Shown here piece after piece: positions 6,936 through 38,417 of a stretch of DNA of 42,896 bases. Numbering within the stretch: the first letter of the stretch is position 1; each line of letters starts with the position of its first letter. A program made the translations under genes and the position numbers. Origin of the DNA: Fusicatenibacter sp. (lineage in GTDB: Bacteria; Bacillota; Clostridia; Lachnospirales; Lachnospiraceae). The stretch lies in contig JAGHIA010000128.1 in NCBI GenBank assembly GCA_017887445.1, positions 1-42,896 of the forward strand. Reading direction: 5' to 3'. Under the pieces are notes generated by a model. It had not been told where the DNA came from. It saw nothing but the letters and a program-made list of their open reading frames with translations, and searched no databases.

Positions 6936-8069
6936 ATGTCAAAGATGAGAAAACCATTAGAACTATACGTCCATATCCCATTCTGCGTCAGGAAATGCGA
7001 TTACTGCGATTTTTTATCGTTTCCGTCATCGGAGGAACAGCAGCGCGGATATATGGAAGCGCTGAGGAAAGAAATTCTTGGAAGCGAGTCACGGCCGGAG
7101 CATTTAGTCACCTCCGTTTTTTTCGGCGGCGGAACGCCGTCGGTGCCGCCGGCAGAGCTGACTGCAGAGATCCTGGAGCTTCTGAGAGAAACATTTACCT
7201 TTGACAGCGGCGCGGAGATCACCCTGGAAGCGAACCCCGGCACACTGACAGAAGAAAAACTGAACATCTACCGGGCCGCCGGCTTCAACCGTCTGAGCAT
7301 TGGCTGCCAGTCAGTACACGACGACGAGCTGCGGCGGCTGGGAAGGATCCATACCCATCAGGAATTTCTGGACAGCTTCGCCATGGCAAGGAACTGCGGG
7401 TTTACGAACATCAACGCAGACCTTATGTCCGGTCTGCCCGGCCAGAGCTTAGAAGCATATGAAACCAGCCTGCGCACCGTGGCGGCGCTTGGCCCGGAGC
7501 ATATATCAGCCTACAGCCTGATCGTGGAGCCGGGCACCCCGTTTGCCAGCCGGGAACTGGAGCTTCCGGATGAGGAGACAGAACGGAAGATGTACGAAAG
7601 AACCGGAGAGATTCTCGGAGAATATGGGTATACTCAATATGAAATCTCCAACTACGCGAAACCAGGATACGAATGCCGCCACAACATCGGCTACTGGAAA
7701 CGCACCGATTATCTCGGCTTCGGTCCGGGAGCCGCATCACTGATGGAAAACCGCCGCTATTCCAACACAACGGAAGTAAAACGGTATCTGGCACAAAGCG
7801 GCCATCCGGAAAACATCCGGGAACAGGTGGAACAGCTTACGGAGCAGGAATGCATGGAAGAATTCATGTTCCTGGGCCTGCGCATGAACCAAGGGATTTC
7901 CGAGCAGGAATTCCAGCGGCAGTTCGGAAAAGAAATAGACGCGGTATACGGAAACGTACTGGCCAAGTACGTCTCTTCCGGATTCCTCTGGAGAGACCGC
8001 GGAGCCGTTGGGCTGACCCGCCAGGGAATCTCCGTCAGCAATACGATCCTGGCTGAGTTTCTTTTTTGA
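6936..8069 (+). CDS. hemW: HemW-like radical SAM heme chaperone (formerly annotated HemN-like)
   Basis: A 377-residue radical SAM protein. HemW family members bind heme and a [4Fe-4S] cluster and are thought to insert heme into respiratory proteins; they lack coproporphyrinogen dehydrogenase activity. The cluster motif is C17-VRK-C21-DY-C24, i.e. CxxxCxxC, within LYVHIPFCVRKCDYCDF. GGGTPS and the SIGCQSVHDDELRRLGR stretch are SAM-fold markers, and the C-terminal HemN_C domain ends with LTRQGISVSNTILAEF. The reading frame stays open far upstream, but that sequence is repeat and antisense gtrA, so ATG 6936 (or ATG 6945) is taken. The ribosome binding site is weak (AGAAAGAAG). The extra CxxC-type fourth Cys of true HemN is absent. 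Confidence 0.92.
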   Translation: MSKMRKPLELYVHIPFCVRKCDYCDFLSFPSSEEQQRGYMEALRKEILGSESRPEHLVTSVFFGGGTPSVPPAELTAEILELLRETFTFDSGAEITLEANPGTLTEEKLNIYRAAGFNRLSIGCQSVHDDELRRLGRIHTHQEFLDSFAMARNCGFTNINADLMSGLPGQSLEAYETSLRTVAALGPEHISAYSLIVEPGTPFASRELELPDEETERKMYERTGEILGEYGYTQYEISNYAKPGYECRHNIGYWKRTDYLGFGPGAASLMENRRYSNTTEVKRYLAQSGHPENIREQVEQLTEQECMEEFMFLGLRMNQGISEQEFQRQFGKEIDAVYGNVLAKYVSSGFLWRDRGAVGLTRQGISVSNTILAEFLF

Positions 8070-8083
8070 GGGGGGCGGACGAA

Positions 8084-8400
8084 GCGGGCGTACACGCCCC
8101 GCCACCCGGCGCCCCGCGGTCTGCGGCTGCGGCCTGGGACGGGACTGGCGGGCGCGATATGGGATGCGTGCTCACTCCGACATTCGGACACGGCCAGGCG
8201 GGATGTCCGCGGCGCTCAGAACGGGATGTTTGTGATGTTGGGCGGTTGTTTTTTTGTTCGTTCTGCGCTCCGCGGACATCCCGCCTGGCCGTGTCCGCCT
8301 GTAGTCGCAAGCACTGCATTCCCATATCGCGCCCGCCAGTCCCGCCCCAGGCCGCAGCCGCAGACCGCGGGACGCCGGACGGCGGGGCGTGTACGCCCGC
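8084..8400. repeat. GC-rich giant palindrome 1
   Basis: The left arm, 8084-8223, and the right arm, 8259-8400, are inverted copies around a 35-base loop with a T-run. The outermost 20 bases (8084-8103 against 8381-8400) match perfectly, and most of the arms match closely, except a 24-26 base window near the middle. There the left arm holds TGCGTGCTCACTCCGACATT (motif X) and the right arm, read inverted, holds TGCAGTGCTTGCGACTACAG (motif Y). It starts 14 bases after the hemW stop. Reading frames inside are by-products of the GC bias. Confidence 0.9.
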
Positions 8401-8430
8401 TTCTGATTGTGGCGGCGGAGGGTAGGGCGG

Positions 8431-8941
8431 GAAGTCAGTATCCATTCGCTTTCATCCGTCGCAAGTCGTCATCCCCACCCGCAGACAAGCCGTCACTCCA
8501 CCCGCAGGTAAGCCGTTTCCACCACGCAAAAGCCAACCCCATCCGCCCTCCCCCATCCGCCGCCAACCCCAGAAACCGTGGGAAGCGTACGACCGGGCGT
8601 CAGAGGCGGAGACGTACGGCGGGCGGGGCGAGCGAGGGGGGAGCCGGGGGGACGATATAGGAATGCAATGCTTGCGACTACAGGCGGACGAGGCCAAGCG
8701 AGAAGTCAGTATCCATTCGCCTTCATCCGTCGCAAGCCGTCACCCCACCCGCAGGCAAGCCGTTCCCACCGCGGCCAACCCCATCCGCCCTCCCCCATCC
8801 GCCGCCAACCCCAGAAACCGTGGGAAGCGTACGGCCGGGCGTCAGAGGCGGAGACGTACGGCGGGCAGGGTGGGCGAGGGGGAGCCGGGGGGACGATATG
8901 GGAATGCAGTGCTTGCGACTACAGGCGGACGGGGCCAGGCG
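8431..8941. repeat. Tandem direct repeat between the two palindromes
   Basis: Unit 1 starts GAAGTCAGTATCCATTCGC at 8431 and unit 2 at 8702 (271 bases apart). Further on the copies run 242 apart (AGAAACCGTGGG at 8571 and 8813), because unit 1 has 29 extra bases, a doubling of a CACCCGCAGrnAAGCCGTCA-like stretch at about 8468-8515. Each unit ends in a left-arm module of palindrome 2, including motif Y, so the first unit carries an unpaired arm (8571-8697). Confidence 0.85.
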
Positions 8942-9150
8942 GGATGTCCGCGGAGCGCAGAACGAACAAAACCACCCGCCCGTCAACTCCCAAAATCCCG
9001 TTCTGAGCACCGCGAACATCCCGCCTGGCCCCGTCCGAATGTCGGAGTGAGCACGCATCCCATATCGTCCCCCCGGCTCCCCCTCGCCCGCCCCGCCCGC
9101 CGAACGCCTCCGTCTCTGACGCCCGGCCGTACGCTTCCCGTGGTTTCGTC
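8811..9150. repeat. GC-rich giant palindrome 2 (inverted relative to palindrome 1)
   Basis: The left arm, 8811-8964, and the right arm, 8999-9150, pair around a 34-base loop. That loop is related to the reverse complement of the loop of palindrome 1. The inner arm sequence (CGATATGGGA, GGCCAGGCGGGATGTCCGCG) is shared with palindrome 1, but the outer arms (CGTACGGCCGGGCGTCAGAG) are different. Here motif Y is in the left arm and motif X in the right arm, the mirror of palindrome 1. It ends just upstream of the uvrA promoter. Confidence 0.9.
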
Positions 9151-9166
9151 CCAAAAGAACAAATGT

Positions 9167-38207: not shown

Positions 38208-38236
38208 TTGACAAAATCACGTCAGTGTGCTAGTAT
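38208..38236 (+). promoter_or_regulatory. rplJ-rplL promoter
   Basis: A consensus TTGACA at 38208-38213 and TAGTAT at 38231-38236 are 17 bases apart, with A-rich sequence upstream resembling an UP element. It begins the transcript that carries the L10 leader. Confidence 0.85.
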
Positions 38237-38242
38237 AAAAGC

Positions 38243-38417
38243 TGTATCGCGCAGAAGACAGTGGGTGCCGTAAGGCAGAAGGATGAAAACGCCCGCCGAG
38301 GAGAAGTTACATTCACAGGATAAGTGTGAAAATTCTGACCTCTTCCGTTTCAGGCGGAAGAGTTTTTTTATATTTCCGAAGCGTAGGTACGAAATACTAC
38401 AAGGAGGTGCAAACACA
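38243..38417 (+). promoter_or_regulatory. Ribosomal protein L10 leader with attenuator
   Basis: The 5' untranslated RNA before rplJ has the layout of the L10 leader, including AGACAGTGGGTGC and GCCCGCCGAGGAG, where the L10(L12)4 complex binds to repress its own operon. A stem CTCTTCCG/CGGAAGAG with seven T (38340-38369) is a terminator-like attenuator. AAGGAGG follows just before the rplJ start. Recognised by position and motifs; the fold was not computed. Confidence 0.8.

Follow-up and report, generated by a model that had tools for sequence, protein, structure and literature searches.

The DNA between hemW and uvrA in the window (the whole 42,896-nucleotide stretch analysed here, which is contig C178 of a 3.88 Mb source genome, G000, assembled in 192 contigs) holds two giant imperfect hairpins that belong to a family of such structures. 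Copies of this family are dispersed, have common ends and a common core, are matched by empty sites in related genomes, stand in convergent pairs, and carry arms that differ between species yet remain paired. The explanation that we hold with about even confidence is that the block is a convergent pair from a dispersed, non-autonomous family resembling REPINs and BIMEs, ancient and now largely inherited vertically.

The genes on either side of the block were named by NCBIfam profiles (HemW and UvrA), and the ORFs inside it are mechanical calls. The two hairpins, each some 320-330 nt long between exact stem limits (Table 1), were placed by the first-pass annotation at 8084-8400 and 8811-9150, within 3 nt of the limits found here, and their mirror placement and loops of 35 and 34 bases are likewise borne out. 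Folded as single-stranded DNA, hairpin 1 reaches -185 kcal/mol against -83 in shuffles and hairpin 2 reaches -179 against -77, none of 100 shuffles folding as well as either. The mirror orientation is apparent as inverted likeness between the hairpins, 8252-8343 matching 8880-8971 (91%) and 8141-8230 matching 8992-9081 (88%). The two terminal loops, described earlier as related by reverse complement, show no more than a loose likeness when one of them is so turned. What had been taken for a tandem repeat between the hairpins is a partial duplication in direct orientation (8532-8650 with 8774-8892, 93%; 8637-8707 with 8878-8948, 92%), the second copy of which falls within hairpin 2 and its tail, so that there is no separate central module. 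The left end of copy 1 lies directly after the hemW stop codon (8067-8069). Elsewhere in the window, at 38234-38377, there is a Ribosomal protein L10 leader (RF00557, 54.2 bits).

Table 1. Features of the paired-hairpin block, in window coordinates
Feature	Position	Strand	Basis
Left end of copy 1, G-run and foot tag GGGGGGCGGAC	8070-8080	+	Sequence; common left end ...GGAC in the 59-copy arm-end listing
Hairpin 1 (copy 1), arms 8081-8164 and 8320-8403	8081-8403	+	95% complementarity; z -20.9; covariance model R1 match 8153-8331 (+)
Conserved internal loop, 5' strand, and start of inner helix, TGCTCACTCCGACATTCGGACA	8169-8190	+	
Inner helix P2, 5' strand (CGGACA-N13-TGTCCG), partner strand 8273-8297	8185-8209	+	
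Hairpin 1 terminal loop, 35 nt, G+T-rich	8224-8258	+	
End of P2 and internal loop, 3' strand, TGTCCGCCTGTAGTCGCAAGCA	8292-8313	+	
Copy 1 G-rich tail TGATTGTGGCGGCGGAGGG..., outer limit approximate	8404-8437	+	
Pair interior, including part of the duplicated stretch (8532-8707, like 8774-8948)	8438-8777	.	
Copy 2 G-rich tail TGGGGTTGGCGGCGG..., outer limit approximate	8778-8813	-	
Hairpin 2 (copy 2), mirror orientation, arms 8814-8903 and 9058-9147	8814-9147	-	92% complementarity; z -24.6; model R1 match 8892-9069 (-)
Copy 2 left end, GGGAC on the minus strand, adjoining the uvrA upstream box, GAACAAATG	9148-9152	-	

Units of the family share a common architecture. When the arms are aligned outward from the core, most of 59 copies have the same feet: GGAC immediately before the stem, a stem that opens with G(A/G) and closes with (T/C)C, and then TGGTTGTGGCGGCGG followed by a G-rich tail. 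These feet are found also in another genus, in copies from G730 and G275 that occupy one locus in two species, have arms 54% alike in a global alignment, and read GGAC, then a stem GG...CC, then TG. The stem is interrupted by bulges and by an asymmetric internal loop (CTCACTCC opposite AGTCGCAAG), beyond which lies an inner helix of 24-25 bp, CGGACA-N12/13-TGTYCG paired with CGGACA-N12/13-TGTYCG, and then a variable loop. This core geometry is kept in AT-rich copies from a second genus and in the G730 copy, and thus extends over three genera, one copy being decayed. The outer arms are hypervariable yet self-complementary. On the A strand the terminal loops of G000 have a composition of A 0.08, C 0.17, G 0.38 and T 0.37 and are thus rich in G+T, like the tails; the 5' arm is rich in G (0.53) and the 3' arm in C.

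The core itself varies in one respect, in that a single G is missing from 6 of 11 distinct G003 loop strands, at five loci. Among the loci compared, this deletion is confined to G003, whose copies carrying it are not in the model alignments A1 and A2. Its occurrence at hemW, trmL and dapB, where the orthologues keep the base, indicates that copies within a single genome have exchanged sequence, which at the level of sequence we regard as demonstrated. G000 and its relatives also carry another dispersed repeat between genes, whose ends are TTTGAAAATT ... AATTTTCAAA (for example L045 ~2212-2380, L040 ~1618-1760 and L047 ~2470-2700). With one mismatch allowed, 13 of 51 hairpin copies have TTTGAAAATT or its complement on the tail side and 5 of 51 have it on the left, against a background of 0.11 per window of that search; since the motif is not constant among copies it is treated as a separate repeat, and we reject it as part of the hairpin unit.

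Hairpin 1, used as a query against its own genome, gave 35 matches across many contigs, and these copies have the core in common and not the arms. In seven genomes of the carrier genus, which is taken to be Fusicatenibacter, a covariance model located at least 39 copies in G000, at least 12 in G001, at least 14 in G003 and at least 13 in G005, making at least 78 places in four of the seven; the counts are lower bounds, obtained by scoring 150 candidates per genome (1078 in G000) and taking the better strand of each place. No copy was found by the model among the best 150 candidates of G002, G004 or G006. Copies are detected through their core, so that decayed copies are under-sampled. A pattern for the core matched 4 of 98 genomes (the source genome included), all from one genus, and a similar pattern matched 21 stretches of GTDB contigs, in three assemblies only: Lacrimispora saccharolytica An817, Candidatus Fusicatenibacter merdavium CHK183-1962 and Ca. 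F. intestinigallinarum CHK185-5351.

Models R1 and R2 were built from 25 and 15 chosen copies. Searches of wider range employed a strict pattern and two covariance models. Among 397 genomes of the family the strict pattern matched G000 alone. The first model, with the best 7-9 candidates scored per genome, matched G000 and one genome of a second genus among 299 genomes of the family, and copies are present in three of nine genomes of that genus. The second model matched 2 of 392 genomes of the order and 3 of 397 of the family (G000 included) and added a third genus, in which two of eight genomes have a copy, one of them decayed, between the same two flanking genes. With 7-9 candidates scored per genome in these large searches, absence from other genera is weak evidence. 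A repeat confined to the window, as the first-pass annotation had considered, is nevertheless ruled out by the copies across the source genome, the other genomes of the genus and the GTDB contigs; homologues and empty-site alleles both exist. An origin from a phage or plasmid is unsupported, since a distant blastn search of plasmids and phages and two patterns run on viral contigs all returned no match.

Close pairs of copies are convergent in 10 cases out of 10, with the GGAC ends outward and the starts of the model matches 422-1320 nt apart; some of these pairs are orthologous, so that the ten are not independent events. In a tree of 61 cores that includes eight pairs, three are sister pairs, two fall within starred sets of three rows and three do not cluster. 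Several copies lie at contig ends (C149, C66, C182, C2, C141 and C78). Two contig-end sequences of G000, L050 and L006, are near-perfect palindromes with arms of 129 and 121 nt, the former running into an AT-rich flank, and these very long palindromes are possibly assembly artefacts.

Comparison of orthologous sites gives the family a history. The hemW-uvrA site is empty in G001, G002 and G006, with 0, 18 and 13 nt from the hemW stop to the uvrA upstream box, and is filled in G000 by the pair, in G003 by hairpin 1 with what remains of the second end, and in G005 by hairpin 1 followed by a fragment of an Rpn nuclease. That fragment (L103 828-1391) is an N-terminally short Rpn/PDDEXK_2 'recombination-promoting nuclease' ORF, seen in G005 only among the filled sites read. 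In G004, where the covariance model found no copy, the hemW end was not located by pattern. No target-site duplication was recognised by eye between filled and empty hemW-uvrA sites, and the insertion is old. At dapL-asnS the hairpin is intact in G000 and decayed in G001, a remnant left by deletion is all that G005 retains, and the site is empty in G003; the plsX hairpin is common to G000, G001 and G003 and absent from the stretches of G002 and G004 that were read. Shared, decayed and empty orthologous sites together imply that several insertions predate these species and were followed by decay. No recent move of any copy was found, and the many sites shared by the carriers suggest that spread may have ended long ago. 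The earlier proposal of a non-autonomous mobile element thus gains from the dispersal, the empty hemW-uvrA sites, the sporadic occurrence in two other genera and the defined common ends; the search for a transposase, a target duplication or a recent move gave it nothing.

How are the arms kept complementary while their sequence changes? In an alignment of 25 of the 61 copies, 96.9% of cells are paired compared with 77.5% in shuffles, two-sided changes are found at 36 of 50 pairs, the cells changed on both sides number 233 (56 in shuffles), and one-sided changes are rare. For five orthologous hairpins, represented by 16 copies, pairing between the arms of a copy reaches 81-95%, and identity between species is 55-82%. 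Seven of 18 arm comparisons between species exceed all 100 shuffles and the other 11 do not; the homology in those seven means that slow compensatory change may still contribute. Mismatches in the outer arms comprise 69 G.T and 71 A.C (counted in 59 of the 61 copies, the other two having short flanks, and without the first 18 columns of the alignment, where constant bulges lie), or 82 and 76 when those columns are included, and this near equality implies no RNA-like preference for wobble pairs; a fold-based count of the outer arms gives 153 G-U pairs on the A strand and 70 on the other, chance pairs included. The first 16 pairs of the inner stem differ, the A strand having 36 G.T against 15 A.C there, and 20 of 25 copies retain a U.G wobble, implying that the core may be under strand-specific constraint. 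The arms are still paired where the core has been lost (G003 at rny) or has decayed (G275). Pairing has probably been restored by template switching of DNA, in which one arm would serve as template for repair of the other. Multi-base paired changes that restore perfect stems by such switching have been described for RNA genes (PMC8794818); those hairpins lie in RNA genes, whereas the present family consists of very long intergenic palindromes whose outer arms have no RNA-like wobble bias.

Many copies abut genes. Where an ORF lies within 400 nt of a left end, it turns its 3' end towards the copy in 35 cases and its 5' end in 22; in 20 of the 35 the stop codon is no more than 11 nt away, or in 15 of 30 once zero distances are removed, the ORF calls near copies being mechanical and the zero distances possibly artefacts. 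In the gap between trmL and a histidine kinase gene that converges on it, a classical bidirectional terminator hairpin is present in G004 and G006, while G000, G001 and G005 have a pair and G003 has at least the trmL-side hairpin. A simple terminator scan found nothing above shuffles at this site in G000, G001 and G005; it missed the terminators of G004 and G006 too, and is therefore a weak scanner. Over the window it gave 2 sites, compared with 1.7 in shuffles. The stems have no U-tract directly after them, being followed by the feet and then TGG..., or by GTCC... on the other strand. A simple scan found no promoter in the block.

Pair interiors are variable. At trmL the interior holds a GNAT gene in G000, and the pair spacing is 422 nt in G001 and 508 nt in G005. 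At an ABC-transporter/AraC locus the G003 pair starts 589 nt apart, and in G000 the two hairpins are on separate contigs. On contig C80 of G000 (L267 6971-14518), type I-C Cas3, Cas5, Csd1, Cas7, Cas4 and Cas1, identified with Pfam, lie on the tail side of one of these hairpins, and the genes flanking this cas set enclose only a close hairpin pair in G003. What may be one enlarged interior in G000 is not general, given that at rny and on C157 apparent core genes, named by eye, flank the hairpins on both sides. No autonomous parent element was seen in the annotated pair interiors, where the GNAT gene is the only one identified within an intact pair.

Among known systems the closest in plan are the REP, BIME and REPIN sequences, which PMC3116915 and PMC3733652 describe as dispersed intergenic imperfect palindromes with a foot tag and conserved mismatches, occurring singly and as inverted doublets. 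The hairpin family shares with those descriptions its many dispersed copies, foot tag, conserved mismatches, single and doubled arrangement and presumed non-autonomy. It departs from them in its units of ~320-330 nt, compared with 20-40 bp for a REP, in arms that are not conserved, and in feet that read GGAC/TGG instead of the REP tag GTAG. The RAYT (Y1) transposase domain, PF01797, was not found in G000, G001, G225, G441 or G275 by a search whose control matched 5 of 14 known genomes, and was found in the remaining four of nine carriers, G003, G005, G440 and G730; RAYT mobilisation is thus unsupported for G000, and no mobilising enzyme was found for the family. We conclude that the family resembles REPINs and BIMEs in plan and differs from REPINs in size, tag and transposase. 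PMC3733652 also describes CGTC-tagged REPs with CGTC at one end, CCA at the other, stems of 8-9 bp and no dedicated transposase known. The complementary strand of the hairpins similarly reads CCA-stem-GTCC; the tags, however, are on opposite sides and CGTC REPs are reported there from other phyla, and the likeness is probably a coincidence of short tags.

Like MITEs, the copies are short and intergenic, lack a transposase gene and have inverted ends, GGAC followed by G pointing outward at both ends of a pair; unlike MITEs, the arms of most copies are not homologous. A target duplication was not recognised, and the loci read showed no transposon with matching ends that could be a parent. Integron attC sites have variable paired stems, conserved bulges and an unpaired stretch, and are recognised as a folded single strand. 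The hairpins have comparable stems, bulges and an unpaired stretch, a likeness that we regard as analogy, but their conserved core is without R and L boxes (by inspection), and they stand at separate loci or as convergent pairs and not in cassette arrays of one direction. Rfam gave no family at gathering score for the block, the best at E values up to 10 being a microRNA precursor family (82.6 bits against 168), and no match at E 0.05 for six loci of other genera, and a known RNA family is rejected on this basis. A literature search at title level recognised no published element as this family of giant paired hairpins.

Several other readings must be weighed against this one. The block and its relatives could be a structured non-coding RNA family, with the A strand transcribed, the internal loop and inner helix binding a protein or ligand, and the whole multiplied in one clade. 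Very strong covariation (36 of 50 pairs, 233 cells against 56), the kept U.G wobble, the G.T excess in the first 16 inner pairs (36 to 15), the retention of the core in three genera and a TATAAT box, noted by eye, just before the left end of the second-genus copy L203 all fit with it. We nevertheless consider an RNA somewhat unlikely, as the outer arms have no G.T bias, the left ends face both 5' (22) and 3' (35) ends of ORFs, implying that in many cases the A strand is antisense or not transcribed, no promoter came out of the simple scan of the block, Rfam yielded nothing at the thresholds above, and the family is both multicopy and sporadic. Unlikely, too, is the idea that these are host-encoded boundary devices, either transcription insulators or mRNA 3' ends, selected locus by locus. 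The proximity to stop codons (20 of 35, or 15 of 30), the pair at the trmL site where G004 and G006 carry a bidirectional terminator, and retention at orthologous sites would be expected of such devices; many copies, however, are decayed or lost at orthologous sites, none was found among the best 150 candidates of each of three sister species, the stems have no U-tract, the window scan (with its weak scanner) is at shuffle level, and a boundary function leaves the conserved core unexplained.

The conserved bulges and asymmetric loop within an otherwise homogenised palindrome, together with the fixed convergent pairing and the interiors that vary between pairs, are what one might expect if the hairpins were sites for recombination or chromosome organisation, extruded as cruciforms that a recombinase or nucleoid protein would recognise, with no transposition involved. 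That the copies are scattered over many unrelated loci and share their ends suggests movement instead, and no recombinase was linked to the copies, making this proposal quite improbable. An assembly artefact, in which the inverted duplications were made by the assembler, is extremely unlikely: several copies do stand at contig ends and two palindromes there may be artefactually extended, but the core and feet recur in three further named assemblies, of which one is entered as a strain, not a MAG, a one-contig genome contains a decayed copy whose arms are paired, the arms carry mismatches, and filled and empty sites agree with the gene order.

Returning to the REPIN-like mobile palindrome, its workings might be envisaged as follows. 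The core, as single-stranded DNA or a cruciform, would have been, or may still be, the recognition site of a trans-acting enzyme; the arms would be kept complementary mainly by arm-templated repair, through template switching in replication, and not by selection on an RNA; and the remaining copies, lying flush with gene ends, may for this reason be tolerated, and sometimes used, as transcription-unit boundaries. Some evidence stands against this reading. The analysis turned up no enzyme, target-site duplication or recent move, and the Y1 transposase was found in only four of nine carriers, G000 not among them. The inner-stem excess of G.T over A.C and the kept U.G wobble would fit RNA or strand-specific DNA as well, and homology beyond shuffles in 7 of 18 arm comparisons leaves room for slow compensatory change. 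Three of eight pairs fail to cluster in the core tree, and boundary use has to contend with the lack of a U-tract after the stems. A bolder proposal, which is possible but doubtful, is that this is a new category of element, defined by its folded-strand core, in which an enzyme, acting on single-stranded or cruciform DNA, would recognise nothing but the internal loop, the helix CGGACA-N12/13-TGTYCG and the feet GGAC/TGG, hairpin-templated synthesis would rewrite the two arms together, and convergent pairs would bound variable bays and become gene boundaries. If this were true, copies at one site would keep their structure while their sequence was replaced.

Finally, the hairpins are real, family-wide and old. 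They most likely represent a non-autonomous, REPIN-like mobile palindrome that is unusually large, has its two arms rewritten together and is often placed at the borders of genes. Known dispersed bacterial palindromes are mostly tiny REPs with a dedicated transposase, whereas these units are about ten times larger, with barely conserved arms and a structural core that has persisted across three genera. They offer a natural test case for how long hairpins arise and persist in bacterial chromosomes, whether by template switching or by selection, and for the possible reading of a folded core, as DNA or as RNA, by some enzyme, and they bear on how mobile palindromes come to occupy gene boundaries. 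They also carry a warning, that strong covariation by itself need not signify RNA.
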